Shown: positions 927 through 27,235 of the stretch, piece by piece
Numbering within the stretch: the first letter of the stretch is position 1
Layout of the letters: each line of letters starts with the position of its first letter
IMG/VR virus record: IMGVR_UViG_3300035698_003078
Coordinates: 1-27,396 of that record
Origin: a virus
Direction: 5' to 3' (one strand)
Length of the DNA stretch: 27,396 nucleotides
Made by a program: the position numbers and the translations under genes
The notes under the pieces: generated by a model
The model's database searches: none
What the model saw: the letters and a program-made list of their open reading frames with translations, nothing else
Told to the model about the DNA's origin: nothing

Positions 927-1022
927 TTAATATCCTCCAAAAAACATAATTATAAATTCAATAACACCTAAACATATAAGTATAAAAGAACTTATATATA
1001 ATAACACTCTTAAATATATCAT
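927..1022 (-). CDS. 31-aa hydrophobic membrane peptide
   Basis: The ATG at 1022 is preceded by AAAGGAGGTATCA, one of the best ribosome binding sites in the cassette. Its ATGA overlaps the TGA of the zinc-finger gene (1019-1021), and its own TAA ends one base before the lipoprotein ATG. The peptide starts MIYLRVLLYISSFILICLGV and is a single hydrophobic helix (about residues 4-28) with one Arg near the N-terminus and a Glu at residue 22. It matches no family I recognise. The tight coupling on both sides argues that it is translated. It could be a small membrane effector or lysis accessory, which is inference only. Confidence 0.55.
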   Translation of the reverse strand: MIYLRVLLYISSFILICLGVIEFIIMFFGGY

Positions 1023-3556: not shown

Positions 3557-4745
3557 TATTGAGATACCAGAAATATTTGAGGATTTATTTTCCCCGTGTA
3601 GATATAAAATCTATTACGGGGGACGCTGACGTGGTGCTGGTAAGTCGCACTCTTTTGTTACTGCATTAGCTATATTAGGAACACAAGAATCATGTAAGAT
3701 TCTTGCATGTCGGGAATTTCAAAGCAGCATAAAAGATAGTGTTAAATCATTATTAGATTTAAAAATAAAAGAATTAGGTTTGGAATATTTTTATACATCA
3801 ACTCGGGATTCAGTTATTGGTTTAAATGGAACTGAATTTATATTTGCTGGATTAAAATCAAATGCTTCTAAAATTAAAAGTTTAGAAGGAATTAAATATT
3901 GTTTTGTAGAAGAAGGACAAACTATATCACAAGAAAGTATGGATATTTTAATTCCAACAATCAGAGTTGTTGATTCTGAAATATGGATTGGGTTTAATAC
4001 ATTATATGAAACAGACCCTGTATATAGAATGTTTGTTAAAGAAGGTAGACCAGATTCAATAGTTAAGAAAGTTAATTATTATGATAATCCATTTTTTCCA
4101 GATGTATTAAAAAAAGAAATGGAATTTGATAGAAAAAATAATCCAGATAAATATAAAAATGTATGGTTAGGTGAGATACTTACTATTAGTGAAGCAGCAG
4201 TATTTAAAGATAAGATTAAAATAGATAATTTTGAAACTCCTGAAGATGTAACATTTTATCAAGGATTGGATCCAGGATTCTCACAAGATTATTTAGCATT
4301 TATAAGATGTTGGATAGATGAAGAAACAAATCATTTGTATATAGATAAAGCAAATAGAAAATTAAAATTAGAGATAGATGATACACCAAGATTTTTAGAA
4401 CAAGTAATTCCTGGATGTAAAGAATGGATGATTACTTGTGATAGTGCAAGACCTGAATTAATAAGTTATCTAAAAAATAAAGATTTTTATATTCAATCAG
4501 CAAAGAAAGGACCAGGAAGTGTAGTTGAAGGGATATCATTTTTACAAAATTATACAATTGTTATACATGAAAGTTTAAAAGATGTTATTCAGGAATTTTT
4601 AATGTATAGTTATAAGATAGACAAACATACTGGTCAAATATTACCAAAATTAGAAGATGGTAATGATCATTATATAGATGCATTAAGATATGCTGTCGAA
4701 GATTATAACAGGGTTGATTATACAATAACGGTGCCGGGGGAATAA
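3546..4745 (+). CDS. terL: Terminase large subunit with in-frame TGA in the Walker A loop
   Basis: The frame from ATG 3546 to 4745 is 399 codons plus stop, with one internal TGA at codon 28 (3627-3629). Upstream residues end in RYKIYYGGR and the frame resumes with RGAGKSHSF, so the stop splits the Walker A loop. Downstream are the Walker B-like CFVEEGQ (about residues 119-125), the motif GFNTLYETDP, and the RNase H-like nuclease with D242 (GLDPGF), D299 (CDSARPE) and D374/D378 (NDHYIDALRY). This matches the Terminase_3 (PBSX/P22-type) packaging motor. The first usable start after the TGA is a TTG at 3780, which would yield only a product lacking the P-loop. Without recoding the gene would be null. 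Codons around the stop use CGC, CGT and CGG, unlike the AGA used elsewhere. Confidence 0.85.
3592..3632 (+). promoter_or_regulatory. Hairpin plus CGC-TGA-CGT, candidate recoding site
   Basis: The RNA hairpin is formed by CCCCGT (3592-3597) pairing with ACGGGG (3616-3621) and by an inner TAGAT/ATCTA (3599-3603 with 3609-3613), with a G-T pair, one bulged T and a loop of ATAAA. Five bases later come CGC TGA CGT (3624-3632). CGC and CGT are read by the same bacterial arginine tRNA (ICG anticodon). A six-base hop would therefore give GGR-GAGKS, the canonical P-loop. UGA followed by C is also a leaky stop context. A weak GTGC/GCAC stem (3634-3637 with 3647-3650) follows. A recoding function is inference. 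Confidence 0.35.
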
Positions 4746-6796: not shown

Positions 6797-6822
6797 ATTA
6801 ACGGGGTAATAGGAGTAATAAC

Positions 6823-7617
6823 ATGAACAAGAAGATGTATTTCAATTCGGACATGGAATTAAAAACTTCTAAGGAAGATAGTAGAGTTGTTGAATTTATT
6901 GCTTCTAAAGAGGTTGTTGACAGGGGTGGAGATGTAGTTAAGATAAAAGGTATGAATTTCAAAGAGTTTAAGAAAAATCCAGTTATCATGTGGAGTCATA
7001 ACCATGGTGATCCACCTATTGGTAAAGCTGTTTCAGTTCGTAAGACAGGTGATGAAGTTATTATTAAAGTTCAATTTGCAACTGAAGAAGAATATCCATT
7101 TGCAGATACTGTATTCAAACTTGTTAAGGGTGGATATATAAATGCTACGTCAATTGGTATTATCCCAAATTATGATACAATGGAATATCCTGATGGTAAG
7201 AAACAAAATGGTAAATCAGTTAGACGTATAGTTAATAATTCAGAATTATTTGAATTATCTATTGTTCCTATACCAATGAACCAAGATGCTCTTACTACTG
7301 GTAAATGTCTAACTAAAGCATTTGATGAAGGTATCATAACTGAAGATGAACTTAAATCATTCAATGAACCAGATCATGTTGAAGTTGATGAAGATATTAC
7401 AAATATAGAAACTAAATCAGAAACTGAAGATGAAACTTTGATAAAAAATCAGAACATATTAATGAAGGCAAGGATTGCTGAGCTTGAATTACTTGTTAAA
7501 GAGCAAGAAATGGAATCTGAGGAAGAGGAAAGCATTTATAAAAGTTTATATGATGAATTTATAGTAATGAAAGATAATAAAGATACGACTTATAATATTC
7601 TTGATGAATATTTATAA
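6823..7617 (+). CDS. Prohead protease (HK97 gp4-like, peptidase S78/U35) with acidic coiled-coil tail
   Basis: The 264-aa product has the S78 fold signatures: EFIASKEVVDRGGDVVKIKG near residues 24-43, PVIMWSHNHGDPPIGKA with candidate catalytic H59 or H61, and INATSIGIIP with S110. The conserved FELSIVPIPMNQDA segment follows. Residues about 185-250 are acidic with a coiled-coil pattern, perhaps an internal scaffold-like tail, while the capsid carries its own delta domain. The protease cleaves the capsid delta domain and itself during maturation. AGGAG precedes the ATG, and the gene sits between portal and capsid as expected. Confidence 0.9.
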   Translation: MNKKMYFNSDMELKTSKEDSRVVEFIASKEVVDRGGDVVKIKGMNFKEFKKNPVIMWSHNHGDPPIGKAVSVRKTGDEVIIKVQFATEEEYPFADTVFKLVKGGYINATSIGIIPNYDTMEYPDGKKQNGKSVRRIVNNSELFELSIVPIPMNQDALTTGKCLTKAFDEGIITEDELKSFNEPDHVEVDEDITNIETKSETEDETLIKNQNILMKARIAELELLVKEQEMESEEEESIYKSLYDEFIVMKDNKDTTYNILDEYL

Positions 7618-7728
7618 ATAGAAGTTTGTATAGGCGAGTAAGCCATAATTATGTGCATATTACTTAGCAACTATATGAAACCTCACAAACAAACAATAAC
7701 TTAATTTCAAATTAAAATGAGGTGTATT
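7618..7728 (+). other. Structured leader of the major capsid gene
   Basis: No ORF is supported here. Partly complementary segments are present: GTTTGT (about 7624) with ACAAAC (about 7685), the near palindrome ATAATTAT around 7647, and TAAG/CTTA flanking it. They suggest a folded 5' leader. The ribosome binding site GAGGTG at 7719-7724 precedes the capsid start. It could hold a promoter or processing site boosting capsid expression; neither is demonstrated. Confidence 0.3.
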
Positions 7729-8946
7729 ATGGAAGACAAAAGAGCAGAGTTAAAAGGTATTATCAAAGAAGTAGTTCAGGAAATGCCTAATGATAAAATT
7801 GCAGCTATGGAAACTAAAATGGATGAACAAGAAGAAACTAATGCTAAAGTCCTTGAAACTAATACTGAATTAAAAGCTCAGTTAGAAGGTATGCAAGGTA
7901 AATTGGTTACTTTAAAACAAAATACTGGAACTAATACTTTCTTGTTCAAAGGATTCGATCCTAATATGAGTAAGAACTTTAGAAGCACATTAAATTCAGA
8001 TGAAGCTAACCAAGTTGCTACTGTTATGGTCAAACAAGCTATTACACAACAAAATGGTGCAGTATTTAATGATGTAGCTATTGAAAAAGTATTTGAAGGT
8101 TCAAATGCAATTCCAGTTCAATATGGTAATGCAGTAATGGGATTAGCAGAGTTAAGTTCAGTAGCATTGAGTTATGCAAATGTGGTTCAAGTAAATGCAC
8201 CAGTGATTAAACTACCTACTAAAGGAACAAGAGATACTATTGATAGTCAATCATCTGGAACAGCTAATAGAGTAGCAACATCTACAATCGGTCAGTTAAC
8301 ATGGACTATTGATAAAAGAGTTGGTAACTATATTGAATTATATAATGATCAACTTGATGATGCTAACTTTGATATTGTTAATCAGATTATAATTCCATTT
8401 CAAGCAGAAGCAGTTGGACAAAATGTAGATGATGAAATGTTTAATGGAACTGAATTTACTTCTAGTGTTTCAGATGCATCAGCTTCTATTGATACCACTG
8501 CTGGTGTTGTATTCACATTTGCTAATTTGAATACTATGTTTTATGCATTAGAATGGGAAAGAATTTTAGGTGATCCTAAATGGTTTGGATCAAGAGGTGC
8601 ATTGAAAGATATTTCAGCATTGGTTGATACAACTGGTAAACCTATTTTTCAGCAAGTTCCTATTAATGGAAGACCTTCTCAAATGTTACTTGGTGCTCAG
8701 TATGTAGTTACCCCTGCAATTGCTAATGCTCCTGAAGATGGTGCTATTAGATTAGCATTTGGTGATCCTAAACATTATACTATCTTTATTAGAGGTAGTG
8801 AATTTGTTTCTATGGTCAACCCTTATATTAAAATGAAAGAAGATATTACTCAGTTCATTTGCAAAGCAAGAATGGACGGTAATATTGACGATCATGCAAC
8901 TGCATCTAGTTCTGGTGCATGGACAGTGGCTAAAAGAAACGACTAA
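7729..8946 (+). CDS. Major capsid protein, HK97 fold with N-terminal delta domain
   Basis: I place the start at ATG 7729 because GAGGTG lies just before it; an in-frame ATG at 7717 would include that site as codons. The 405-aa product begins with about 70 residues of charged coiled coil (the delta/scaffolding domain removed by the protease) and a Gln/Thr/Asn-rich linker. The HK97-fold body follows, with an N-arm and E-loop region around KLPTKGTRDTIDSQSSGTAN, a long spine helix near DQLDDANFDIVNQIIIPF, and a P-domain/A-domain part containing ALEWERILGDPKWFGS and the C-terminal PYIKMKEDITQFICKARMDG. No separate scaffold gene exists. It is followed by a strong terminator, which fits high independent expression. 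Confidence 0.92.
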   Translation: MEDKRAELKGIIKEVVQEMPNDKIAAMETKMDEQEETNAKVLETNTELKAQLEGMQGKLVTLKQNTGTNTFLFKGFDPNMSKNFRSTLNSDEANQVATVMVKQAITQQNGAVFNDVAIEKVFEGSNAIPVQYGNAVMGLAELSSVALSYANVVQVNAPVIKLPTKGTRDTIDSQSSGTANRVATSTIGQLTWTIDKRVGNYIELYNDQLDDANFDIVNQIIIPFQAEAVGQNVDDEMFNGTEFTSSVSDASASIDTTAGVVFTFANLNTMFYALEWERILGDPKWFGSRGALKDISALVDTTGKPIFQQVPINGRPSQMLLGAQYVVTPAIANAPEDGAIRLAFGDPKHYTIFIRGSEFVSMVNPYIKMKEDITQFICKARMDGNIDDHATASSSGAWTVAKRND

Positions 8947-10450: not shown

Positions 10451-10846
10451 ATGGCTACTCAAACAGGTATAGATGCAGTAGTAAAGTTAGGTGATGTTAC
10501 TGTATTAGATCTAGCAACATGGTCAATTAGCGATTCTAAGGCGCCTATAACTGGTGCAACTTTTGGATCAACAATCACAAAGGTTCATGGAATGGGCATG
10601 AGAGAAATTTCAGGATCAGTTTCAGGTTACTTAAATACTTCAGATTCAACTGGACAAATTCTAATTGAAGCTGCTTATATTGCAGGAACACCATTAACTG
10701 ACTTTAGATTATATATTAATGATACTGAATATTATTCAGGAACAGCAGTATATATTTCAAACTATAACACAGAAGCAACTGCGGAGGATGCGGTAATTCC
10801 AGTTTCGTTTGATTTTAGTGTGTCAGATAATTGGACAAGAGCGTAA
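10451..10846 (+). CDS. Major tail tube protein
   Basis: The 131-aa, Thr/Ser/Gly-rich, almost all-beta protein starts GIDAVVKLGDVTVLDLATWS, includes MGMREISGSVSGYLNT and DFRLYINDTEYYSGTAVY, and ends VSFDFSVSDNW. This is the pattern of short siphovirus tube proteins related to lambda gpV without the extra Ig domain. The position directly before the G/GT chaperone pair supports it strongly. Hexamers stack to form the tail tube. AGGAG precedes the ATG. Confidence 0.82.
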   Translation: MATQTGIDAVVKLGDVTVLDLATWSISDSKAPITGATFGSTITKVHGMGMREISGSVSGYLNTSDSTGQILIEAAYIAGTPLTDFRLYINDTEYYSGTAVYISNYNTEATAEDAVIPVSFDFSVSDNWTRA

Positions 10847-14553: not shown

Positions 14554-15297
14554 ATGACATTCAAATATTGTCCAAATATATATACAGGTGACCTTAATCA
14601 GGAAGCTATTCAGGAAGCTATTCAACATGCTCGATCAGAGTTTCCTAATGAATCTTGTGGTGCAATTATAAAAGGTGAATATGTTAGGTTTAAAAATATA
14701 GCAGAAGATCCTTCTAAACAATTTGTATTTGATGATGATATATGGTACATAGCTTATATTCAAGATGAAGTTGATTGTTTAGTACATAGTCATAATGATT
14801 ATAATAAACTATCATTAGATGATCAAATTCAACAAAGAGAATTATTAGTTCCTTCATTGGTTATTAATTTAAGAAATAAATCACTAATGGATTGTGTTGT
14901 ATTTGGAACTAAAGATCATGCTCCTTTAATGGGTAGACCATTCTTTTGGGGTGTATTTGATTGTGGTACATTAGTAGAACATTATGTTCAAGAAGTATTT
15001 GATTATACCATTAAGACCCCACCTCATGAATGGGCATTCTGGATGAAAAATGAAGATTGTTTCATGGAATATATTAACCAAGATGATAAGTTTTATGAGG
15101 TTCCTATTAATGATATAAGAAAGAATGATATCCTATTATATAACATTGATGGATCAAGGTATATCAATCATGTAGCTGCTGTAACAAGTGATAAAGGAGA
15201 AGTATTACATCATATGTATAATGGAGTATCAGGCACATATCCTATAAATTTCAATAGAAAATTTTTAAGAAAAGTAATGAGGTACTCTAATGATTAA
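14554..15297 (+). CDS. Tail tip protein K-like: JAMM peptidase plus NlpC/P60
   Basis: The 247-aa protein has two enzymatic modules. The N-terminal JAMM/MPN part has E33 (FPNESCG), the H78-S-H80 pair and S87/D90 in HSHNDYNKLSLDD, the complete zinc-binding set. The C-terminal NlpC/P60 part has C137 in FDCGTLVEHYV and H206 in INHVAAV, the catalytic pair. Lambda-type K proteins help tail tip assembly and may act on peptidoglycan during entry. The stop overlaps the start of the I gene by 8 bases. Confidence 0.88.
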   Translation: MTFKYCPNIYTGDLNQEAIQEAIQHARSEFPNESCGAIIKGEYVRFKNIAEDPSKQFVFDDDIWYIAYIQDEVDCLVHSHNDYNKLSLDDQIQQRELLVPSLVINLRNKSLMDCVVFGTKDHAPLMGRPFFWGVFDCGTLVEHYVQEVFDYTIKTPPHEWAFWMKNEDCFMEYINQDDKFYEVPINDIRKNDILLYNIDGSRYINHVAAVTSDKGEVLHHMYNGVSGTYPINFNRKFLRKVMRYSND

Positions 15298-15940
15298 ATT
15301 ATATGGAAAACTTGCTAAGAAATTTGGAAAGGTTTTGAATATCAGAGTTAATTCTGTCAAAGAAATGATGAAAGCATTAGAAGCTAATATACCTGGGTTT
15401 AGATCTAATATTGATAAAGATAAAAACTATGTTATTAGACGTGGAGACACATTCAAAACAGCCACAGATGTTGATGCTTTAGAAGTTGAAATGAATTTCG
15501 CTGATACTACTTGGCATATATTACCTTTACCAAGAGGAAGTGGAAGTTTTGGAAAGATAATATTAGGTGCTATATTAATTGTTATTGGTGTAGTATTAAA
15601 TGTTTATACTGGTATTTCTGGTACTTGGTTTATTAATGCTGGTATTGGTATGGTGATTGGTGGGATAGCAGGATTATTAGCACCAGCACCAACAGCAAGT
15701 AATTATGGAGATAGAGAAGTTGCTAATGAAAGACCTTCTTATTTATTTGATGGACCTACTAATAGAACTGCAGCAGGTGGAGCAGTACCTCTTATATATG
15801 GATTTGGTGCATTTGTAGGATCAACATTTATTTCAGGAGGGTTAGAAATAGGTGATATTTATGTTGCACCAGAAGTAGTTGAAACAGTAACACCAACCAT
15901 ACCAGCAGAACAAAACATAGATTATGGAGGACGTCACTAA
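15290..15940 (+). CDS. Tail assembly protein I-like with hydrophobic glycine-rich segment
   Basis: The 216-aa protein has an N-terminal ubiquitin-like half (IKLYGKLAKKFGK, VKEMMKALEANIPGF), then a strongly hydrophobic glycine-rich stretch at about residues 85-135 (IILGAILIVIGVVLNVYTG), and the conserved GGAVPLIYGFGAFVGS near residues 163-178. It ends in an acidic/proline tail. This is the standard gpI layout in lambda-like tips. The stop TAA shares its final A with the J gene ATG (TAATG). Confidence 0.88.
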   Translation: MIKLYGKLAKKFGKVLNIRVNSVKEMMKALEANIPGFRSNIDKDKNYVIRRGDTFKTATDVDALEVEMNFADTTWHILPLPRGSGSFGKIILGAILIVIGVVLNVYTGISGTWFINAGIGMVIGGIAGLLAPAPTASNYGDREVANERPSYLFDGPTNRTAAGGAVPLIYGFGAFVGSTFISGGLEIGDIYVAPEVVETVTPTIPAEQNIDYGGRH

Positions 15941-18900
15941 TGTCTAAAAAAATAATTAGAGGATCAGGTGGTGGTGGAGGTGAAGATACTTATATTCCAA
16001 TCGAAGCTGAAAATACATTACAAGCAAATACTATTGCAAAGTTAATTGATTTATTAGGTGAAGGTGAGATTGGTGGACCTGCAACAGGAGATAGTTGGTA
16101 TCAATCAACATACTTAAATGAAATTCCTATCCAAAATACAGATTTATCTTATAATTTTCAAGGTGTTTCATTAGATGCAAGAAAAGGAGAAGGAGATCAA
16201 GATTCATTAACTGATTTTCAAGGTGTTGAAACAACATATAGTGTTGGTTTAAATGTAACTGCTACAGGTGGTGCGATTGTAAGAAGTATTACAGATACAG
16301 ATGTTGATGACTGTAAAGTAACTATTTCAATACCTTCTATGATGGAACAAGCTGATAATGGTGATTTGAATGAAACAACATTACAATTACAAATTTCAGT
16401 TACTCCTGACGGTGGAACTAAACAAGCAGTTGTAAAGAGTGATGGTGGTGGACAGATATTTGGTAAATGTATAACTGAATATAGAAAGCAATTTATAATT
16501 GAAAATTTATTACAATATGGATCTGGTCCTTGGGTAATTACTGTTGAAAGAATAACTACTGATTCAGGTAGTGCTAAATTAGTCAATTCTTTCAAATGGT
16601 ATTCATATACTACTATAATTAAAACCAAATTAAAATATGATGATAGATCAGTAATTGGTCTTACCATTAATGGTAGAGAGTTTGGTAATAAGATGCCTAC
16701 AAGAGCATATAAAGTTAATGGTAGAAATATTAAAATCCCAAGTAATTATAGTCCAGCAGAAGATAATAGAACTTATTCAGGAATATGGGATGGTACATTT
16801 ATAACAGCTGTTTCTAATAATCCTGCATGGATAGTATATGATTTATTAACCGATCCTTATTCATGTTTAGGTTTAGTAATTGATGAAGACATGGTTGACA
16901 AATGGAGCTTATATACCGTTGGTCAATATTGTGATGAAACTGTTGATATTATAACAAGATCAAAAGATGAAGATACTGGAGTATGGTCTGACTCAACTGC
17001 TGTAGAACCAAGATTTTCATTCAATGGTGTTATTGAAACAAGAACTCAAGCATTAGAAGTTATAGTTCATATGTGTTCAGTGTTTAGAGGATATCCAATT
17101 TGGTCAGGTGGTCAGATTTCATTTGTACAAGATGCTCCAATAACATCTCCACCAAGACCAGTAGGTTTATCAAATGTAAGTGCAGAAGGATTTGAATATA
17201 CCGGTATACCTAAAAGAGATAGACATACAGTTGTTAAGGTATCATGGAATAATCCTGATATACTAGGTAAATTAGATGTCGTTGAGATTGTAGATGAAGC
17301 TGGTATTCAATTATATGGTTATAATGAAATGGACTTTGCTGCATTTGGATGTAATTCTAAAACTGAAGCAATTAGAAGAGGTAAGTATGCATTATATACT
17401 GACTTAAATGCTAAAGAAACAGTTTCATTTAGAGGTGGATTTGAATGGGCGGATGCATTACCTGGTGAATTAATAGCAGTTCAAGATCCAAATTATTCAA
17501 ATACTACATTAGAAGGTAGAGTAACTGATTCAACATCTAATTCAACTACACAATTAGTTTTAGATAAGGATATAGTAATAGAATCAGGTGTTACATATAC
17601 AATGTATCTTCAAACTGCTGAGGGTATACCTGTTGAAAGAGTTTTAATTAATCCATCAACTACTACTAATACATTAACTTGGTCATCTGCTTTAGATGAT
17701 ATTCCATTTACTGGTGCACAATTAGTATTATCAGCATCCAATTTAACGACTAGAAACTTTGTTATTATAAGTGTAGTTGAAAATGATGGTTTCTATGATG
17801 TTACTGGTGTTGAATATGATTCTGGTAAATATGATTATGTAGATAATGGTGTTATTAATTCAGTTGCACCTACTACTGGGTTATTAGCTTCTAAATTAAC
17901 TCCACCTACTGGATTATTTTATGAGACTTATACATATACTGAAAGTGATCAATCAATAAGAAAGTATGGTATTCAATTATCATGGTTACATTCAATTGAT
18001 CCTAGAACTATTTATTATGAGGTAATGTATAAACCAACAACATCTAGTTGGATTAAGTTAGGTAATTCATATGAAAGTTCTTATGATTGGAGAAATGTTT
18101 CAGATGGTGTTTATAGTATTAGAGTTAGAGGTGTTGGTGTTGGTTTAGTTTCTGAATGGTTAGTTGTAACCAATGTTGATTTAGCAGCAGGTCTAACTAA
18201 TTTACAACCTCCACAAAATTTAGATACCGTAGAAGGTGAAGGTGTATTTAGTGGTAGAGATTGCACTATTGAATGGGAACATTCTACTGGTATGGATTAT
18301 GATACTACTGGTAATATTATATTTGAACATGCAACTGTTGGTGGAAGTAATATATCATATTATAAAGTTGAGGCAAGGAAATATTCAGATTCAACATTGT
18401 TAGCTACATATAATGTTCCTTATGATGATTTAAAATTTACTTATACTTATTCAGATAATTCAGATCATCATTCAGGATCACCAAATAGAAATATAATATT
18501 TGATGTATATGCCGTAGATGTTTATGATACAGCATCTGCTTCTTATGCATCAGTTACATGCACCAATCCAGAACCAGATATGAGTAGCACTACTATTAAT
18601 CTAAGACCTGGTTCTACATATATGAAATTAGATTGGATTAATATAACTGATAATGATATGGATTATTATAGAGTATATTGGGGTGATACATTAGATAGTG
18701 AAACTGAATTTAAAGATATTAAATATCCAGGTAATAGAACTGAAATTATTGGTTTAAGTTATGGAACTACTTATTATTTCAAAATTATGCCATATGATCT
18801 ATTTGGTGCAGGAACAGAAACTACTGGTAATTTCAATGATCAAGCTACACAAATACCATCAGAAGATATTAATGTTGAATTACAAGCTTCTATTATATGG

Positions 18901-21000
18901 ACAGATGAAGATTCAAATACTACTACTACATTAAATGCTTTATATGATGGTGTTACTGATTCAGGTGGAGTTGCTTATACTGGTGGATGGAAATGGATTC
19001 AAGCAGATTTAGGTATTGAAGATTATATTAATGGTATTCAAATCTGGGGTGCTGGTGCTTTAAATGTAGCAGTTGCTTATAAAAGAAAAATAGAAGATGA
19101 TTGGTCATTCTTATCTGGTGATGCTTCTCATGAATTAGCTTTATCAAATGATCAATATAGATTAACTTCAAGATCAACATTAGCTTTAGCTGAAACTAAT
19201 TATTGGACTACTGATACTGGTTTTAATTATGCTTTCTTTCCTAATAATGTTATTGCTAGATATTGTAGATTATATATTAATGCTTCATCTTCAACTATTT
19301 ATGAATTGGTATTTAGAAGAATAGTTATTGCTGAGGATTTAGCGGTTGAAAGTTTAAGTGCTATTTCTGGTGATATAGGTGTTATTACAACAGGACTTAT
19401 TGAATCAACTGATTATCCAACATCTGGATTACAAATTGATATTGATGAAGGAACTATTAAGGGAACAGTAACATTTACAGGAAGTTCTTCAATAGATTAT
19501 AGTGCTATTATTGGTGATACTAAACCTGATGATAATGCAACAAGGAATTATTTCACTGGTGATTGGGTTAATGCAACAGCATATACTGTTGGTGATATAG
19601 TTTTAGATAGTAGTGATAATGGTTGGGTATGTATTTTAAATCATACTTCAACAACTGGAACTAATGAACCTCCAACATTACCTACAGAATCTAATACATG
19701 GTGGAGTGTATATACATTACAAGGTGCACCAGGTATAGATGGAACTGATGGTGCAGATGGAACTGACGGAACTAATGGAACTCCAGGTGTTGATGGAGAA
19801 GATGGATTAAGCACTTACGTTCATTATGCTTATGCAACAACAACCAATGGATCAACTGGATTTACAACTACTTATACTGGTGTTGAAAATTATGTAGGTA
19901 TACTAACTGATAATAATGTTGCTGATTCAACTACTTATAGTGATTATGATTGGGCATTATTTAAAGGTTCAGATGGATCTGATAACTCAGCTTGGGAACA
20001 TCCTTCTGATCAAACTAAAATTGATGGTGGAGATGTTTATGTTGGATCAAGTATAAAATTATCAGAAGGTGGATCTATTATTTGTGGTGATTATAATATT
20101 CAAATTAGAACATCTGCTAGTACTAATGATATAACTGTAGCACCTGATGGTGGAACATATCATAATGATTATTTGAATATGGATTCTGGTGATTTAAATT
20201 TTTATATTTGGAATGGTTCTAATCATGTTCCATATAAAACAGTTAGCCATATTGAAACTGGTGTTGGACAAAATAATACTCAAGTTACTATACCAGGTTA
20301 TTTCAAGAATAGACCTAAAGTAATTGTTTCACCAAATTCATTACAAACATATGATGGATCTGCTTCTGGACAGGATCAAACATTACATTTAGATGTTTCA
20401 GGATTAACAGAAACATATACTGGTTCTATGATATGGAAATTTACACCAGTTGCTCAATTAGTTATGGCATCTGGTTCCATAAGTGGTGTGGCAATTAGTG
20501 GATATACAGGAGGATCAGGAAATACTTCTACACCATCAGTAACAAGTTGGTATCAATTTGTTAATATAGCAAATATTAGAAGAGTTATTTGTTATGCATC
20601 ATTTGTAGGTTATACTTTTTCTAGTACTTATAATGGTGATGGTGATGAAGGTGGTGCTGGTGGAACTTACACAACAAGATATTTTGCAGCTAATGTTACT
20701 ATTAAATTTTCATGGTGGGATGGAGCTGAAAGATATAATTCAAAAATATATAAAGCTGCAAGTAATGGTTATACTCCAATAACTTTAGATACTGGAGTAT
20801 GGGGGTCTGACATATCTTATATTAGAGTTACTGCAACATATTCATCTGCAACATCAACAATATTAAGTTCAAATCCATATTCAACTGTTAATATAAATGG
20901 ATCAAGTATTATTGCAAGGATGGATAGTTATAGAACTGATTTAGGTGGAGCTCAAGTATTAGCTAATGGATCATTAAATTGGACAGCTATAGGACAATAA
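15940..21000 (+). CDS. Central tail tip/host specificity protein J-like, 1686 aa
   Basis: The N-terminal half follows lambda gpJ: LIDLLGEGEIGGP near residue 35, DARKGEGDQDS near 77, VYDLLTDPYSCLGL near 298, and FSFNGVIETRTQALEVI near 360. Fibronectin type III-like segments occupy about residues 645-970 (WLHSIDPRTIYYEVMYK; MDYYRVYWGDT). A discoidin-like domain follows at about 975-1130 (GGWKWIQADLGIEDYINGI). A short collagen-like run of GxD/GxP triplets lies near 1260-1290, then a YVHYAYATTTNGS module and a Gly/Ser/Thr-rich C-terminal receptor-binding region. It is about 550 residues longer than lambda gpJ (1132 aa), the surplus being in the C-terminal half. It forms the trimeric central fibre that contacts the receptor. 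Confidence 0.88.
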   Translation: MSKKIIRGSGGGGGEDTYIPIEAENTLQANTIAKLIDLLGEGEIGGPATGDSWYQSTYLNEIPIQNTDLSYNFQGVSLDARKGEGDQDSLTDFQGVETTYSVGLNVTATGGAIVRSITDTDVDDCKVTISIPSMMEQADNGDLNETTLQLQISVTPDGGTKQAVVKSDGGGQIFGKCITEYRKQFIIENLLQYGSGPWVITVERITTDSGSAKLVNSFKWYSYTTIIKTKLKYDDRSVIGLTINGREFGNKMPTRAYKVNGRNIKIPSNYSPAEDNRTYSGIWDGTFITAVSNNPAWIVYDLLTDPYSCLGLVIDEDMVDKWSLYTVGQYCDETVDIITRSKDEDTGVWSDSTAVEPRFSFNGVIETRTQALEVIVHMCSVFRGYPIWSGGQISFVQDAPITSPPRPVGLSNVSAEGFEYTGIPKRDRHTVVKVSWNNPDILGKLDVVEIVDEAGIQLYGYNEMDFAAFGCNSKTEAIRRGKYALYTDLNAKETVSFRGGFEWADALPGELIAVQDPNYSNTTLEGRVTDSTSNSTTQLVLDKDIVIESGVTYTMYLQTAEGIPVERVLINPSTTTNTLTWSSALDDIPFTGAQLVLSASNLTTRNFVIISVVENDGFYDVTGVEYDSGKYDYVDNGVINSVAPTTGLLASKLTPPTGLFYETYTYTESDQSIRKYGIQLSWLHSIDPRTIYYEVMYKPTTSSWIKLGNSYESSYDWRNVSDGVYSIRVRGVGVGLVSEWLVVTNVDLAAGLTNLQPPQNLDTVEGEGVFSGRDCTIEWEHSTGMDYDTTGNIIFEHATVGGSNISYYKVEARKYSDSTLLATYNVPYDDLKFTYTYSDNSDHHSGSPNRNIIFDVYAVDVYDTASASYASVTCTNPEPDMSSTTINLRPGSTYMKLDWINITDNDMDYYRVYWGDTLDSETEFKDIKYPGNRTEIIGLSYGTTYYFKIMPYDLFGAGTETTGNFNDQATQIPSEDINVELQASIIWTDEDSNTTTTLNALYDGVTDSGGVAYTGGWKWIQADLGIEDYINGIQIWGAGALNVAVAYKRKIEDDWSFLSGDASHELALSNDQYRLTSRSTLALAETNYWTTDTGFNYAFFPNNVIARYCRLYINASSSTIYELVFRRIVIAEDLAVESLSAISGDIGVITTGLIESTDYPTSGLQIDIDEGTIKGTVTFTGSSSIDYSAIIGDTKPDDNATRNYFTGDWVNATAYTVGDIVLDSSDNGWVCILNHTSTTGTNEPPTLPTESNTWWSVYTLQGAPGIDGTDGADGTDGTNGTPGVDGEDGLSTYVHYAYATTTNGSTGFTTTYTGVENYVGILTDNNVADSTTYSDYDWALFKGSDGSDNSAWEHPSDQTKIDGGDVYVGSSIKLSEGGSIICGDYNIQIRTSASTNDITVAPDGGTYHNDYLNMDSGDLNFYIWNGSNHVPYKTVSHIETGVGQNNTQVTIPGYFKNRPKVIVSPNSLQTYDGSASGQDQTLHLDVSGLTETYTGSMIWKFTPVAQLVMASGSISGVAISGYTGGSGNTSTPSVTSWYQFVNIANIRRVICYASFVGYTFSSTYNGDGDEGGAGGTYTTRYFAANVTIKFSWWDGAERYNSKIYKAASNGYTPITLDTGVWGSDISYIRVTATYSSATSTILSSNPYSTVNINGSSIIARMDSYRTDLGGAQVLANGSLNWTAIGQ

Positions 21001-21001
21001 A

Positions 21002-21574
21002 ATGGACAATATATTAGTTATGTTATCTGGTGGTGTAGATAGTGCTTATTGTATGTATTATTATTTAGAGAATACTAACTTACCTATCTACACACATCAT
21101 ATAATTTTAAGAAGTGATAGAGAACGTAGATATCAACAAGAAACTAAAGCTACTAATTCAATTATAGAATGGTGTAATAATAATTATCCTAATAGAATTG
21201 TTAAAAATTATAATAGTAATTGGTGGATTAATTCAAATGTTTCAGGACAAGATATTGATTTATCATTATTTATTGGTGCTACGGTTGCATGTAAGTTACC
21301 TGGTGTTACTGCTATAACTACTGGTCGTAATTTAGAAGATGGTGGTGTTGATGGAGATGTTGCTGCTAATAAAATATGGAAAGTATTTGCTGAAACATAT
21401 GATGGATTAGAATGGGAAACATTAAAACCAGGTAAAGATTTACATAAAGTTGAAGTTATAAAATTATTACCTAAAGATTTATTTGAATTAACTTGGTCTT
21501 GTAGATCATCACATACAGACAAACAATGTGGTCAATGTCATGCTTGTTTATTAAATAAAGGAGTTATAAGATGA
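21002..21574 (+). CDS. QueC-like 7-cyano-7-deazaguanine synthase family protein
   Basis: The 190-aa protein has the PP-loop ATP-pyrophosphatase signature SGGVDS (residues 9-14) at the N-terminus. The C-terminus has four cysteines C167, C176, C179 and C182 with spacing 8-2-2, the zinc-binding pattern of QueC, in context LTWSCRSS and CGQCHACLLNKG. QueC converts 7-carboxy-7-deazaguanine to preQ0 with ATP and ammonia; preQ0 feeds queuosine tRNA modification and, in some phages, DNA base modification. It is shorter than E. coli QueC (231 aa), with a reduced middle region. It starts one base after the J stop, and its TGA overlaps the next ATG (ATGA), so it is translated with tail genes. No FolE, QueD, QueE or DpdA gene is in the window. 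Its substrate here is unknown. Confidence 0.8.
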   Translation: MDNILVMLSGGVDSAYCMYYYLENTNLPIYTHHIILRSDRERRYQQETKATNSIIEWCNNNYPNRIVKNYNSNWWINSNVSGQDIDLSLFIGATVACKLPGVTAITTGRNLEDGGVDGDVAANKIWKVFAETYDGLEWETLKPGKDLHKVEVIKLLPKDLFELTWSCRSSHTDKQCGQCHACLLNKGVIR

Positions 21575-22470
21575 TAAATTATACATCTAATACTATTTCA
21601 GATATAATTAAAGCAATAAAATATAATTATTCAAATACTGATGAAGATACTGAAATTTCAATGTTATCAGACCTAACTGATGTTACTGAGAATTTTATGG
21701 ATTCAACTGGTGTTATTATAACTGAAAGTGATTGGTTAACATATAATAATGATGGAACGGGTTACTGGGATTATGATGTTACATATGGAGATTCTACTGC
21801 TGTTGCTGCTTGGAGACTTGATAATTATAGAGATACTTATTTACAAGCAAAGAGATCAACAGGATCAATATTATTCTGGGATAATTATAATACTATTCAA
21901 TATAGAACTGATATGGATGCTTATAATAATTTAATAGATGGAGATTCTAATTCTAATATTTCAATAACATATACTGATTCAACTTCTGAAATATTTTTAG
22001 AAACTGAATATCCAGTTGATCAAACAGCTAATTTAATTAAGGTTAGAGTAGATGAAGATGATGTTAAAGTATATTTCGCATACTCAATAAATGGTGAGGA
22101 TTGGACATATTTAGCTGCCACAACCACCAATCATTCACCAAGCACTTTGACCCAACAATCGACCAATGAACTAGCACAGGCATCATATATACAGTTAGAC
22201 TCAGGATTAAATACATTTCAAACACCTACTGATATTCAAATTAAATATATTAAAATGATATTTGTGCCAAGTGAATCTTCTAATACTGCTACTATTATAT
22301 CATTTAGTTTAAGATCAGTTGTATTCATTGAAGATTTAGGTGCAGGAACTATTACTACAGATCATATTGTTATTTCATCAGCAGATGGTAAGACAACATT
22401 TGATGGTAATACAATTACAGTTAAGGATAGTTTAGGAAACACCAGGGTAATATTAGGAGAGTTACCATAA
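21571..22470 (+). CDS. Tail tip/fibre accessory protein with J-like C-terminal module
   Basis: The 299-aa, Thr/Asp/Asn-rich beta protein has no enzymatic motif. The middle resembles a carbohydrate-binding or concanavalin-like sandwich (VKVYFAYSINGEDWTYLA). The C-terminus (FSLRSVVFIEDLGAGTITTD, then DSLGNTRVILGEL) parallels the segment ELVFRRIVIAEDLAVESLSA of the J-like protein at about residue 1125 and the common phage tip ending with LGNTRVxLGEL. It overlaps QueC by four bases and ends in TAATG shared with the next gene. It is probably a structural extension of the tail tip. Confidence 0.6.
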   Translation: MINYTSNTISDIIKAIKYNYSNTDEDTEISMLSDLTDVTENFMDSTGVIITESDWLTYNNDGTGYWDYDVTYGDSTAVAAWRLDNYRDTYLQAKRSTGSILFWDNYNTIQYRTDMDAYNNLIDGDSNSNISITYTDSTSEIFLETEYPVDQTANLIKVRVDEDDVKVYFAYSINGEDWTYLAATTTNHSPSTLTQQSTNELAQASYIQLDSGLNTFQTPTDIQIKYIKMIFVPSESSNTATIISFSLRSVVFIEDLGAGTITTDHIVISSADGKTTFDGNTITVKDSLGNTRVILGELP

Positions 22471-23318
22471 TGGCTATCTTATATGGAGATTTTATAGTTG
22501 TAGGTCAAGCAGATAATAATAATACTGCTGGGGTTGGTTCGGCATGGACTGATATAAATAATACCATAGATGGAACTGCAACAACATATGCTACTCTTAA
22601 TGATGTATCATATAGTAAGATATTATGGGTAGGTGGTAATAATATAAATACATCAAGATCAGATTATATAGTTAGTGTTGAAGTTGGATTTACTGGTTAT
22701 AGTGATATAGCTTCTAGATATGCAATGAGAGGATATAATAATAATATAACACCAAGGTTTGCATCAGAATATGAAGTAGGTAATATTTCAACAACAGAGG
22801 ATACTCATTGGTTAGAGATAACTGGTCGACATACTTGTCCTAATTATGGTGAATGGGAATGGTCTGATATACCTGGTTTACAAATATCTTTATTTGCATT
22901 AAGTAGTGATATAGAAACACCATCTATATTATTTGATTTACATTTAAATAACATTCAATTAAGAGTAACTACACAATCTACTCCATTAAAAAAATATGGT
23001 TTAAGATGTTATGATGATAATGGTGATGTTACTATAGATCCTAATGATAATATTTCAAGAATTTTATATAGTGAAATTGTAGAACCTGATGATAGTGGAA
23101 CTATATGGGTATCAACTGATGAAAAAACTGAAATAGTAGGATTTGTTCATTCATTAGCAAGTGGAACTCTAACACATAATCTAAATGTTTCAGATAATTA
23201 TACAACAATAGTTGATGGGGTTAGAACTGAAATGTGGGTTTATAATCCTATTATATTGGATTACATGGAATATGATATTAGAAATGGTAGATCACAAATT
23301 ATAATAATGGGGTATTAA
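22470..23318 (+). CDS. Tail tip/fibre protein A with YGL-x-ID module
   Basis: The 282-aa beta-rich protein has an N-terminal sandwich domain of about 170 residues and a C-terminal part beginning KKYGLRCYDDNGDVTIDPND, which matches the opening YGLVIKNSAGKVVIDS of the following gene. It ends in GRSQIIIMGY, a closing strand pattern common in phage tip proteins. It has no signal peptide or membrane segment. The start codon overlaps the previous stop (TAATG) and it ends one base before the next ATG. Confidence 0.6.
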   Translation: MAILYGDFIVVGQADNNNTAGVGSAWTDINNTIDGTATTYATLNDVSYSKILWVGGNNINTSRSDYIVSVEVGFTGYSDIASRYAMRGYNNNITPRFASEYEVGNISTTEDTHWLEITGRHTCPNYGEWEWSDIPGLQISLFALSSDIETPSILFDLHLNNIQLRVTTQSTPLKKYGLRCYDDNGDVTIDPNDNISRILYSEIVEPDDSGTIWVSTDEKTEIVGFVHSLASGTLTHNLNVSDNYTTIVDGVRTEMWVYNPIILDYMEYDIRNGRSQIIIMGY

Positions 23319-23319
23319 G

Positions 23320-23994
23320 ATGAGTGATTATGGTTTAGTAATTAAAAATTCAGCAGGCAAAGTAGTTATAGATAGTGTATATAAAAATTATACTTATTAT
23401 GAAAGTGGTACATCATCATTGGTTCCGGGTATAAATGAAATATCTATAACAAATACAACATCACATTTAGTATTAGTTTTAAAACCTAATACAGATGCTT
23501 ATATGATTCCATATGGATTTCTTGATACAACAACACCAGGAACATTTGAATCTATTATGATAGCTGCTGATGCTACTTGTGAATGTGAATGGATATTATA
23601 TAGAGATGGTCAAACAACAACTACTAATGATAATGGTTTAATAATATATGATTCAACAGCTAATGTTATATTCAATTCAAATGAAACAGGGTATGTAAAT
23701 ATATTAAATCATTATTATTGGAGTCTAACTGCTAATGATGAAACAGCTACAAATGATATAACGGTTAACGATTCAAATAATTATTTTAATATACAAGGAA
23801 CAATTAATTTAACAAAAACAGTTAGTCTTGTTGCAAGATATTATCAAGTAGGATTTAAAAAAATAGATTCAACAACAGTTAGAATGGGACACGTAATAAC
23901 AAAGTCACATTCAGTTTCAGTAGCACACCCAATAGGTCAAGGTAGTTTATATCCAATGACTATAATTGAATATAAAGCACCACCATCCATCTGA
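23320..23994 (+). CDS. Tail tip/fibre protein B with YGL-x-ID module
   Basis: The 224-aa protein begins MSDYGLVIKNSAGKVVIDSV, the same module as in the C-terminal part of the preceding gene. It continues as a beta-rich, Asn/Thr-rich chain with a second similar segment NGLIIYDSTANVIFNS near residue 105. It ends MTIIEYKAPPSI before TGA. The repeated module suggests trimeric or stacked tip decoration. Its specific role is unknown. Confidence 0.55.
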   Translation: MSDYGLVIKNSAGKVVIDSVYKNYTYYESGTSSLVPGINEISITNTTSHLVLVLKPNTDAYMIPYGFLDTTTPGTFESIMIAADATCECEWILYRDGQTTTTNDNGLIIYDSTANVIFNSNETGYVNILNHYYWSLTANDETATNDITVNDSNNYFNIQGTINLTKTVSLVARYYQVGFKKIDSTTVRMGHVITKSHSVSVAHPIGQGSLYPMTIIEYKAPPSI

Positions 23995-24034
23995 TATTTT
24001 TCAGAACATATATATAAACAATAGGAGAAATATT

Positions 24035-27000
24035 ATGTCTATATCTGCAACTTATATAAGTGCAAATAGCTTTTCATTATTAGGAAATAATACTACTGAA
24101 TTTCATGCAGGACGAAAAGTCCAACTTACTGGTAATTCAACTTGGTATGGAACTATTGAGAGTTCAGCGTATACATCTATAACTACAGTTACTCTTACTG
24201 ATGATAGTGATAATATTGATTCCTCATTGATAGCTGTTAATTATGGTATTGTTGGCGCTATAAATAGTTCATTACCAGATCATACTCATGTTAAGAGTGA
24301 GGTTGGATTAAGTAATGTTCCAAATTTAGATACCACATCTGCAGTTTTTAATGATCATTCAGAATCTCATACCGTTGCTTCTCATTCAGATACTACTGTT
24401 ACAGGTGCTCAATTAAATACTTTATATTCAAATACATCTGGATCTAATACTGGTGATCAAGATTTATCAGGAAAAGAAGATGTAGGAACAGCTAGTGGTT
24501 TAATATCAAGTCATGTTAGTAGTCATCCAGCTCCAACTAATAGGGATACTAGAAATGAAATAGCAGGAACAGCTAGTGGTTTAATATCAACTCATACCAC
24601 AACTCATCCAGCACCAACTAGCAGGGATACTAGAAATGAAATAGCTAAAGGTTCAGATGATAATTTTGTAACAGATGCTGAAAAAACTATATTAAGTAAT
24701 ACTAGTGGATCAAATAGTGGTGATAATGCAACCAATACACAATATTCAAGTTTAGAAACTAATACTAATATAACACATACTGGTGAAGTAACTGATACAT
24801 CTGGATCATTAGTTATTAAAGATAATGTTATTGATGAAGCTAATTTGAAATTAGATGAAGGACCTACTAATGATTTTGTATTAACTGCTGACTCTACTAA
24901 ATCAGGTGGTATGAAATGGAAAGAAGTAGTATCTGGTGGTGGTGTAACTGATCATGGTTCATTAACTGGATTAACAGATGACGATCATTCTCAATATCAT
25001 AATGATACAAGAGGTGATGCAAGATACGAATCTAAAAATTCAAATATTCAAACTCATGTTACTGCTACTACTGGTAATCCACATTCAGTTAGTAAATCAG
25101 ATGTTGGTTTAGGTAATGTAGCTAATACTGATTTAACATCTGCAGTTAATTTGAATACTGCTAAAGTTACAAATGTTTCAACTAATTTAAGTGAAGGAAC
25201 TGCTACAACAACTACAGTTAATGTTAATTCAAGTGATGGTGATAATGCCACATTAGTTTCAGCATCAACTAGTAGAGCAGGTTTATTAACTAAAGCTAAA
25301 TTTGATGAAATAACTGCTAATACTAATAAAATTTCATATACTGCGGCATCTGCTGTTGCATTAAATACTGCTAAAGTTACAAATGCTACTCATACAGGTG
25401 AAGTAACAGGTTCTGGTGCTTTAACAATTGCTAATAATATTGTTGATGAAGCTAATATGAAAATTTCAAATGCACCAACAAATGATTTTGTATTAACTGC
25501 TGATAGTGGTGCTACAGGTGGATGGAAATGGGCGGCTGCAAGTTCTGGATTTAGTGATCCAATGACTACTCGTGGTGATATTATAATTAAAAATTCAAGT
25601 GGAACTACTACTAGATTACCAGTTGGAACTGCTGGCCAGGCACTTACTTCTGATGGAACTGATGTTGAATGGGGTGATGTTTCTAGTGGTGGAGTAACTG
25701 ATCATGGTTTATTAACTGGTAGAGATGACGATGATCATTCCCAATATCATAATAATACAAGAGGTGATGCACGTTATGATTTAAGTGCTACAGTTGATTC
25801 TAAAATTGATACTGATATTTCAACACATACTGCTTTACCAAATGCACATCATGCTCAATCTCATACAGTTGCTTCTCATTCAGATACTACAGCTACTGGT
25901 TCAGAATTAGAAACCTTAACTGATGGATCTAATACTGCTCTACATAGTCATACAGTTACTAAAAGTGATGTAGGTTTAGGTAATGTAGCTAATACTGATT
26001 TAACATCTGCAGTTAATTTAAATACAGCTAAGGTTACAAATGTTTCAACTAATATTACAGTAGTAGAAGCTCCAACTAATGTTGAAATTCAATCAAGTGA
26101 TGGAACTAATGATACAATAGCTGCTGCAGATGGAACTAATGCTGGTGTAATGACTACTACAATGTATGATGAACACGTTGCAAATAATGTTAAAGTTTCA
26201 GATATAAATCATAATGTTTCAACTAATTTAAGTGAAGGAACTGCTACAACAACTACAGTTAATGTTAATTCAAGTGATGGTGATAATGCTACATTAGTTT
26301 CTGCTAGTACAACAAGAGCTGGTTTATTAACTAAAGCTAAATTTGATGAAATAACTGCTAACACAGCTAAAGTTTCATATACAGATGCTTCTGCAGTTTC
26401 ATCTAATACATCTCATAGAACGACTACTACTGGTAATCCACATTCAGTTACTAAAACTGATATTGGATTAGGTAATGTAGCTAATACTGATTTAACATCT
26501 GCTGTTGGATTGAATACTGCTAAAGTTACATATCCATCTGGTGATTCAACTAAAGTATCTTATATAAGTGTTACACAAGCAGTTAATTTAGATACTATGG
26601 AAAGTAATATAGCTACTAATAATTCTAAAGTTTCATATCCAGGTTCTGCTAATGCTACTGAATTGAATATATTAGATGGTGCAACATTAACTACTACTGA
26701 ATTAAATTATGTTGATGGAGTAACTAGTTCTATTCAAACTCAATTAAATAATAAAGTTTCAAATGTTACACATACTGGTGAAGTTACTGGTTCAACTGCT
26801 CTAACAATTGCTGCTAATGTTGTTGATGAAGCTAATATGTTAATAAGTAATGCACCAACAAATGATTTTGTATTGACTGCTGATAGTGGTGCTACAGGTG
26901 GTTGGAAATGGGCAGCTAGTTCATCTGGTTTCTCTGATCCATTAACTACACGTGGTGATATTATATATAGATCTGATAGTGCTACAACAAGATTACCAGT

Positions 27001-27235
27001 TGGAACATCAGGTCAGGTATTATCAAGTGATGGTACTGATATTAGTTGGGGTTCTGTTCCAGCGGATTCTACTAAGGTTGATGTTGCTGGTGAAACAATG
27101 ACAGGTGCTTTGGTTGCTTCAGATCATGGAACAGCAGCTACAGATGAAGTAGTAAATGTTGCTTATGGAACAGGAGATGCACCTACAGCTTCAACTACAA
27201 CAATTGGTAGTCTATACTTTAAGTATACAGCATAA
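24035..27235 (+). CDS. Large repeat-built tail fibre protein, 1066 aa
   Basis: The start at ATG 24035 is chosen because AGGAG lies 8-12 bases before it; the longer in-frame reading would overlap the preceding gene. After a distinct N-terminal domain of about 85 residues (probable attachment part), the protein consists of recurring fibre modules: KSDVGLGNVANTDLTSAV (four related copies), HTVASHSDTT (two), GTASGLIS-HPAPT-RDTRNEIA (two in tandem), DHGSLTG-DDDHSQYHN (two), and APTNDFVLTADSGATGGWKW (two, plus one variant). The C-terminal end GSLYFKYTA resembles fibre segments preceding a tip or chaperone. His-rich SH repeats and VxLGNV modules are typical of trimeric fibres. It is probably a side or distal fibre for host recognition. 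Confidence 0.82.
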   Translation: MSISATYISANSFSLLGNNTTEFHAGRKVQLTGNSTWYGTIESSAYTSITTVTLTDDSDNIDSSLIAVNYGIVGAINSSLPDHTHVKSEVGLSNVPNLDTTSAVFNDHSESHTVASHSDTTVTGAQLNTLYSNTSGSNTGDQDLSGKEDVGTASGLISSHVSSHPAPTNRDTRNEIAGTASGLISTHTTTHPAPTSRDTRNEIAKGSDDNFVTDAEKTILSNTSGSNSGDNATNTQYSSLETNTNITHTGEVTDTSGSLVIKDNVIDEANLKLDEGPTNDFVLTADSTKSGGMKWKEVVSGGGVTDHGSLTGLTDDDHSQYHNDTRGDARYESKNSNIQTHVTATTGNPHSVSKSDVGLGNVANTDLTSAVNLNTAKVTNVSTNLSEGTATTTTVNVNSSDGDNATLVSASTSRAGLLTKAKFDEITANTNKISYTAASAVALNTAKVTNATHTGEVTGSGALTIANNIVDEANMKISNAPTNDFVLTADSGATGGWKWAAASSGFSDPMTTRGDIIIKNSSGTTTRLPVGTAGQALTSDGTDVEWGDVSSGGVTDHGLLTGRDDDDHSQYHNNTRGDARYDLSATVDSKIDTDISTHTALPNAHHAQSHTVASHSDTTATGSELETLTDGSNTALHSHTVTKSDVGLGNVANTDLTSAVNLNTAKVTNVSTNITVVEAPTNVEIQSSDGTNDTIAAADGTNAGVMTTTMYDEHVANNVKVSDINHNVSTNLSEGTATTTTVNVNSSDGDNATLVSASTTRAGLLTKAKFDEITANTAKVSYTDASAVSSNTSHRTTTTGNPHSVTKTDIGLGNVANTDLTSAVGLNTAKVTYPSGDSTKVSYISVTQAVNLDTMESNIATNNSKVSYPGSANATELNILDGATLTTTELNYVDGVTSSIQTQLNNKVSNVTHTGEVTGSTALTIAANVVDEANMLISNAPTNDFVLTADSGATGGWKWAASSSGFSDPLTTRGDIIYRSDSATTRLPVGTSGQVLSSDGTDISWGSVPADSTKVDVAGETMTGALVASDHGTAATDEVVNVAYGTGDAPTASTTTIGSLYFKYTA
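24485..24646 (+). repeat. 81-bp tandem repeat in the fibre gene, two copies
   Basis: 24485-24565 and 24566-24646 encode GTASGLIS(S/T)H followed by HPAPT and RDTRNEIA, 27 codons each, in frame and adjacent. The DNA copies differ at only a small number of positions. Confidence 0.85.
25172..25248 (+). repeat. 77-nt exact direct repeat, copy 1
   Basis: These 77 bases recur without difference at 26213-26289. The similarity continues on the right through the AGLLTKAKFDEITAN codons (about 150 bases in all). Both copies are in frame in the fibre gene. A related GLGNVANTDLTSAV block lies upstream (about 25105) and elsewhere (about 25970 and 26465). Confidence 0.85.
26213..26289 (+). repeat. 77-nt exact direct repeat, copy 2
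   Basis: Second copy of 25172-25248, about 1.04 kb downstream and in the same frame. Recombination between the two would delete about 347 codons without changing frame. Confidence 0.85.

Follow-up and report, generated by a model that had tools for sequence, protein, structure and literature searches.

Enzymes of the PP-loop type, QueC among them, activate a carboxylate by adenylation so that an amine can attack it. QueC homologues have also been recruited outside queuosine synthesis, by QatC and by type IV CBASS, and a preliminary description of the locus studied here was correct on this point, as far as the available text of three papers goes (PMC13329287, PMC11996544, PMC13279940). The reactions of QueC and of Cap9, the QueC-like protein of type IV CBASS, are described in PMC13329287 and PMC13279940. 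According to the available text, Cap9 joins 7-carboxy-7-deazaguanine (CDG) to an amine of a protein (PMC13279940), and the function of E. coli QueC requires Y35, R99, Y131, and Y189 (PMC13329287).

A QueC-like gene in a phage tail-tip operon

The DNA that we analyzed, which we call the window, is an entire IMG/VR virus record of 27,396 bases and is probably a fragment of a genome. The ORF at 21002–21574 (+ strand) is an intact QueC-like gene that encodes 190 amino acids from its ATG, and its product matches PF06508 in Pfam (E 2.5e-9) and phrog_1550 (E 1.9e-19). The SGGVDS ATP-pyrophosphatase loop is present at residues 9–14 (21026–21043), and its S, G, G, D, and S are invariant in all 21 members of our family alignment. 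The zinc cysteines are complete as well (C167-x8-C176-x2-C179-x2-C182; with W165 and R168, they span 21494–21547), so the PP-loop and the 8-2-2 cysteine spacing are intact, as first described.

The gene's setting also proved to be as described. The J-like ORF (15940–21000, + strand) stops with TAA at 20998–21000, a single base follows, and the QueC-like gene begins with ATG at 21002; its TGA overlaps the ATG of the next gene as ATGA (21571–21574), which confirms the proposed translational coupling. Because the upstream gene is J-like (phrog_31, E 2.6e-193; PF24801, E 4e-28), the placement inside a tail-tip operon holds. The J-like product is a central tail fibre or tip attachment protein of 1686 amino acids. 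On the same strand, it is preceded by genes for a K-like tail tip protein with NlpC/P60 and JAB-like regions (14554–15297; Pfam and PHROG) and an I-like tail assembly protein (15290–15940; phrog_32, E 3.2e-44). The QueC-like gene is followed by genes for three tip accessory proteins, also on the + strand, of 299 amino acids (21571–22470), 282 amino acids (22470–23318; from the ORF list and comparison with a sister phage), and 224 amino acids (23320–23994; from the ORF, PHROG, and the sister comparison).

Close sisters of the window turned up when we scanned with its J protein. In one of them (L234, 59% in J), J is followed directly by a homologue of the window's 299-amino-acid protein, with no enzyme between, and there is no QueC-like gene in the 34-kb L234 record. 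The QueC-like gene is therefore an accessory insertion in a conserved tip operon. Our preferred reading, in which we place a little better than even confidence, is that this accessory member of phrog_1550 would most likely be an ATP-dependent ligase for the phage's own virion proteins and not a preQ0 synthase.

The window has other features of note. A NUMOD3/HNH homing-type endonuclease (2930–3556) lies just before the terminase large subunit (3780–4745), whose match begins at position 345 of 807 of the profile, which would fit an N-terminal part that is interrupted or encoded in another place. The proteins encoded at 1019–1678 (- strand) and 2930–3556 (+ strand) have a similar Cys-rich start (C-x3-C ... 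CC ... C), perhaps a shared zinc finger. At 23966–27235 there is a long repetitive protein of 1089 amino acids, with repeated SHTVASHSDT- and GLGNVANTDLTSAV-like units and no Pfam match.

Substrate residues, fold, and deazaguanine

The window protein is far from the models of characterized enzymes. It scores 22.7 bits against the QueC equivalog model of NCBIfam (cut-off 150.3) and 15.9 bits against the QatC model (cut-off 280); it does match the QueC model of PADLOC (E 1.6e-8). With the window protein as the query, tblastn found 10 annotated phage records (best E 3e-10).

We added E. coli QueC (K-12 record) to the 21-member alignment to map its residues. Y189 corresponds to an arginine that is invariant in 21/21 members (R168 in the window protein), and Y35 falls in a variable column. 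R99 aligns with gaps in 21/21 rows and Y131 with gaps in 20/21; since the alignment is uncertain in this gapped middle region, these two statements are weaker than the one about Y189. E42 of QueC is retained in 21/21 members and K165 in 20/21. The QueC motifs YxQxHxxE, VPxRN, and YPDC are, like the essential Y189, not retained in the window protein or the family alignment. In their place, the family has invariants of its own (a set that we defined in this analysis: HH, R, E, and WxCR), and the window protein has them all. H32, E47, A50, W165, and R168 are found in 21/21 members, and H33 and R43 in 95%. HH (residues 32–33), R43, and E47 (21095–21142) replace YxQxHxxE.

As judged from these residues, the window gene is not a queuosine-type QueC: the ATP loop and the zinc cysteines are kept, and the substrate residues of QueC appear to be missing or swapped for a different conserved set, mostly basic. 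All 21 aligned members match phrog_1550. The conserved residues do not support the function suggested by the PHROG's label, "QueC-like queuosine biosynthesis".

The preliminary description had suggested that the enzyme supplies preQ0 for DNA modification. More broadly, it might be a diverged preQ0 synthase that serves the modification of DNA or tRNA together with partners that the phage or the host encodes elsewhere. PF06508 membership and the intact ATP loop and zinc site would fit this, and the genome is probably incomplete. Profile searches for PTPS (QueD), TGT (DpdA-like), and radical-SAM (QueE-like) genes found none in the 27,396-base record, in agreement with the initial description, although partner genes may still lie outside of it because it is probably a fragment. 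However, PTPS and TGT genes were also absent from all 10 family records searched, which include the complete phages Muddy and PIS136. Given the lost essential residues and the low equivalog score as well, we consider a preQ0 synthase to be quite improbable, and the proposal of preQ0 supply for DNA modification is not supported. (One radical-SAM gene, G010:C1:15163-15675, lies about 11 kb upstream of a QueC-like gene and is the only such match among the 10 family records.)

Host genomes bear on deazaguanine as well. In Mycobacteriaceae, the host family of the Muddy-type members, just 1 of 81 genomes has a full-length QueC and 8 of 81 have PTPS. Because of these counts and the lack of PTPS and TGT in Muddy and PIS136, CDG, and deazaguanine in general, is unlikely as the modifying group for the family, an argument that does not reach the window's host.

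The fold is that of Cap9 and QueC. An AlphaFold2 model of the window protein, built with 21 sequences, has a mean pLDDT of 87.5 and a pTM of 0.86. Foldseek ranks Cap9 (9NTO_B) first (E 3.2e-7, TM 0.73/0.76). With VIA-align, Cap9 scores Z 19.9 (171 residues aligned, rmsd 2.6), QueC scores Z 18.6 and 17.6 (PDB 3BL5 and 2PG3), and QatC scores Z 16.3 (PDB 9Y01), so Cap9 is ahead of QueC by slightly more than one unit of Z. Canonical QueC does not appear among the best 50 Foldseek rows, which is no evidence of distance, as it does appear by VIA-align. In a search with the family profile, Cap9 (E 3.2e-6) and QueC (E 3.7e-6) score nearly the same. The modeled fold thus appears to be retained, but it shows no function.

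Compared with the described systems, the window protein shares with QueC the fold, SGGxDS, C-x8-C-x2-C-x2-C, and the conserved E and K; it differs from QueC in the four essential residues, in being far below the equivalog cut-off, and in lacking pathway neighbors. QatC of qatABCD resembles it in the common QueC core, an altered CDG pocket, and a link with a protein partner. In contrast to the window protein, QatC has N- and C-terminal extensions and about 400 amino acids, roughly twice as many, and there are no qatA, qatB, or qatD neighbors here.

Cap9 (type IV CBASS, PDB 9NTO) is the most similar of the three, with the best-matching fold, the same minimal length (about 185 amino acids in the available text of PMC13329287, versus 190), the ATP loop, and the zinc site, and it acts on a protein, as we propose for the window enzyme. 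A Cap9-like deazaguanylase that joins host-made CDG to the N-terminal glycine of a phage protein would account for these similarities and for the PADLOC match. However, the residues with which Cap9 and QueC bind CDG (YxQ..E, RN, YxDC) are lost, among them Cap9's recognition motifs Y/FxQ(x)5E and YxDC. The setting differs too: the window gene is in a phage tail operon, the record has no TGT-like Cap10, and Pfam finds no CD-NTase among the J-like and three downstream proteins. The window's neighboring proteins begin with MSKK, MINY, MAIL, and MSDY, so none offers the Met-Gly start that a Cap9-type reaction would use; MGNK starts occur downstream in L006 and L172, not in other loci. Also, Muddy-type members probably have no CDG available, given that a full-length QueC is present in 1 of 81 Mycobacteriaceae genomes. 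We consider a Cap9-like deazaguanylase to be improbable.

Virion proteins with acidic, glycine-rich tails

We collected relatives of the enzyme in several ways. With gp16 of phage Muddy as the query, tblastn matched 19 annotated phage records. Pattern scans of IMG/VR, with a search of related loci, found ORFs with both motifs in 25 loci (some are the same record twice), while a scan of viral contigs with the window protein alone found no relative and a plasmid search gave no match. A scan of species genomes found two relatives, a Mycolicibacter locus and a Bacilli contig. When 396 Actinomycetota and 392 Bacillota genomes were searched with a profile, each set gave one hit, and these were the Mycolicibacter and Bacilli seeds; the family is thus mainly viral.

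Judged from sequence, the relatives are in genomes whose virion proteins, often encoded by directly adjoining genes, bear appended acidic, Gly-rich tails. In Muddy, gp16 (the QueC-like gene) follows the gene for the major tail protein, which ends with GGGGEGEGEGE, and the capsid ends with GGGSGEGEGESE. In L008 and L009, the enzyme gene comes after the capsid genes, and the capsids end with GGGSGEGEGEGEEI and GGGGENGGENGGENGGEV. In L014, it comes after the gene for a tail-tube protein ending with TGEGEGGGE, and the capsid ends with GGSGEGGE. In L023, it comes after the gene for a 397-amino-acid protein, a capsid by position only, that ends with GESGESGESGEGGEGGT. The capsids of PIS136 and L005 end with GEGEGEGGEGGEG and GEGEGEGGEGGGENA. 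In record G008 (L015), both the capsid (GGEGEGEGEGEGEGEGE) and the tail-tube protein (GGGEGEGEGEGEGE) have such ends, and in G012 (L050), (GE)n closes the major head protein and the tail-tube protein as well as a phrog_779 protein. L013 and L067 have shorter Gly-Glu tails. L075 has a Gly-Asp version: its enzyme gene follows that of a capsid ending with GDGDGTPGDGVGDGV. In L038, which is outside of the tail-bearing clade, the enzyme gene follows a gene whose product ends with AGIDGSPGTDGNNGSTDIATY.

Overall, appended Gly-Glu tails such as (GE)8 are found on capsid or tail-tube proteins in about 10 lineages with the enzyme. PHROG confirms the capsid or tail-tube identities for L008, L009, L014, G008, G012, L075, the PIS136 capsid, and the L013 tail tube. 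The tailed capsids belong to different PHROGs (10, 247, and 777, and 29 for the Gly-Asp version). The tail codons are mixed (GGC, GGT, and GGA; GAG and GAA), and this suggests that selection acts at the protein level. The available capsid and tail proteins of L006/G002, L038, L171, and L172 have no Gly-Glu tail.

A second ligase gene is sometimes nearby. In PIS136, a RimK-like ATP-grasp gene (L187 20693–21442; Pfam RimK, E 2.6e-7) comes after the enzyme gene; an ORF similar to it follows the enzyme gene in L005 (6161–6913), and a RimK-like fragment precedes the enzyme gene in L067 (1–354). RimK-type ATP-grasp ligases add Glu to the C-terminus of ribosomal protein S6. They would resemble the proposed enzyme in using ATP to activate a carboxylate at an acidic C-terminus and differ from it in fold and activation chemistry; none was seen in the window.

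Controls support the association of the enzyme with the tails. The (GE)3 coding pattern is present in 8 of 21 family records (the window has none) and in 0 of 50 other IMG/VR records from the pattern scan that lack the enzyme (50 of the 52 non-family loci were used; Fisher p 1.3e-5 with the window left out, descriptive). Similarly, 12 of the 344 ORFs from 16 family loci have a G/E-rich 8-mer, and these ORFs come from 8 of the loci; among 52 control loci, the count is 0 of 597 ORFs. The capsid or tail-tube homologues of 17 phages outside of the tblastn matches (13 phages along with Bbif-1, BiggityBass, TVCOM_ph1, and Prickles) have no Gly-Glu tail. By our own grouping of lineages, tails are present in 10 of 15 with the enzyme and in 0 of 17 without it (p 4.7e-5, descriptive); this count omits L075 (Gly-Asp tail), L082, L065, and the jumbo-size members, which have a tail other than Gly-Glu or no available capsid or tail-tube protein. 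These p values are only descriptive because we noticed the pattern in some of the counted loci and because the lineages are related.

The clearest evidence for the link comes from matched pairs of homologues. The tail tube of G012 ends with AADIAPDQPACEGEGEGEGEGEGEGE, and that of BiggityBass, which lacks the enzyme, ends with AADIAPAQAACVGN: both have AADIAP-x-Q-x-AC, and then G012 has (EG)n where BiggityBass has VGN and a stop. Similarly, the L009 capsid ends with VAFKHKVALGSGGGGENGGENGGENGGEV and the TVCOM_ph1 capsid ends with VAFKHKI; after the common VAFKHK, there is a tail in L009 versus I and a stop in TVCOM_ph1.

The repeat on its own is not a marker of the enzyme. Among 27 ORFs that end with GEGEGE and a stop (TGA only), none has a QueC-like ORF on the retrieved sequence, which makes three GE repeats on an arbitrary ORF a poor indicator. 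Eight of these ORFs were scanned and include one portal and one head-tail connector protein (L085, L118) and a third, in L162, with portal and head-morphogenesis matches; in L085 and L118, virion proteins end with GEGEGE and there is no QueC-like gene on the retrieved sequence.

Could the enzyme and the tails co-occur by shared ancestry of a few gene cassettes, with no functional link? Most tail-bearing members are in one clade, and the pattern was spotted in part of the loci that were counted. However, the tailed capsids fall in different PHROGs, a single genome can have tails on several of its proteins, and more cases turned up after we noticed the pattern (L009, L023, G008, and G012), so we consider this to be very improbable.

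Another reading is that the enzyme modifies a small molecule or a host component, for metabolism, counter-defense, or superinfection, and that its virion-gene neighborhood reflects late expression only. Four loci (L065, L047, L052, and L056) have no capsid or tail gene nearby, PHROG classes the family as moron or auxiliary metabolism, and the gene is missing from the sister L234. This would not account for the Gly-Glu tails that about 10 lineages have on their capsid and tail proteins, and we consider it to be unlikely, although less so than the other alternatives.

Some members have unusual arrangements. L065, a 115-kb record classed as viral, has two tandem QueC-like genes (5557–6834) that are the nearest relatives of the window protein, beside genes that resemble, by eye, isopropylmalate-type amino acid biosynthesis genes; it has no Gly-Glu tail and no evident virion operon. 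Two different QueC-like genes are in tandem in the capsid-tail operon of L013 (6865–8087). The jumbo-size members have no recognized capsid or tail gene nearby (neighbors were scanned with the family library for one member). In two of these, a small acidic protein is encoded two genes upstream of the QueC-like gene (L242 7080–7415; L240, reverse complement, 7179–7445), with MEGEEGQT-like repeats in one of the two records, which makes a further case of an acidic Gly repeat near the enzyme. In Mycobacterium phage Prickles, a queuine tRNA-ribosyltransferase is annotated close to the major tail gene (L249 6361–6501, - strand), and this phage has no gene of the QueC-like family among the tblastn matches.

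The window's J protein and a possible reaction

The window itself lacks Gly-Glu tails: its capsid (7717–8946) ends with GAWTVAKRND, and its tail tube (10451–10846) ends with SDNWTRA. In the tree, the window protein is on a long branch, joins the tandem copies of L065 (L065a/b; 94/90), and is outside of the 15-row clade that holds the tail-bearing members.

The J-like protein is the likeliest substrate in the window, by way of a collagen-like Gly-X-Asp stretch (residues 1262–1291; 19723–19812, + strand), but this is a tentative assignment that comes from one genome pair. The stretch is missing from the J protein of L234, which lacks the enzyme, and from all five further readable J proteins, which are from named phages; two sister J fragments fall short of the region, and the J of Rhizobium P106B was left out of the readable set. 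Acidic Gly repeats were found in 2 of 1163 control ORFs by a greedy both-strand screen, a figure that serves as a control count only, as shadow ORFs hid known tails. Collagen-like stretches are ordinary in tail fibres, so this supports J only weakly. J also has a Gly-rich acidic stretch near its N-terminus (GSGGGGGED, residues 8–16; 15961–15987, + strand), which we rejected as a mark of the substrate because the Gly run is also common in the J proteins of phages without the gene. The family-level link between the enzyme and the tails is a stronger result than the identification of J.

Of the three functions first suggested for the gene, modification of a tip protein comes nearest, and counter-defense gained no support from this analysis. 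It would be one case of a family-wide link to acidic, Gly-rich virion segments, and the deazaguanine that had been proposed as the modifying group is probably not involved. In the reaction that we envisage, the ligase would adenylate a carboxylate, as other PP-loop enzymes do, here on a Glu or Asp side chain in a flexible Gly-rich segment, and the activated side chain would then be joined to an amine. Gly-Glu tails offer carboxylates and not amines, so the polarity would be the reverse of Cap9's: the protein side chain would be activated and the amine would be added. An acidic peptide would be a good match for the conserved H, H, R, R, and K. More broadly, and with less confidence than we have in the ligase itself, we suggest that phages may have evolved a system of virion modification in which Glu or Asp side chains in the disordered Gly-rich tails of capsid, tail-tube, and tip proteins are decorated by a ligase of the QueC fold, in some cases together with a RimK-like ATP-grasp enzyme, and the donor is other than deazaguanine.

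A literature search, mostly outside of subscription papers, found no report that links a QueC-like enzyme with Gly-Glu virion tails. If the virion-modification system is real, it would be a protein modification that the papers found in this search do not describe, it would occur both in the window's tail-tip operon and in phages of therapeutic use such as Muddy, and it would re-explain a PHROG that is labeled as queuosine biosynthesis. QueC-like protein modifiers are known from bacterial anti-phage defense (shown for Cap9 and proposed for QatC); here, phages may use the same fold on their own particles. Candidate substrates, the Gly-Glu tails, are visible in the sequence of an isolated phage, Muddy, and modification of the virion would bear on the surface that a phage presents to its hosts and to antibodies.
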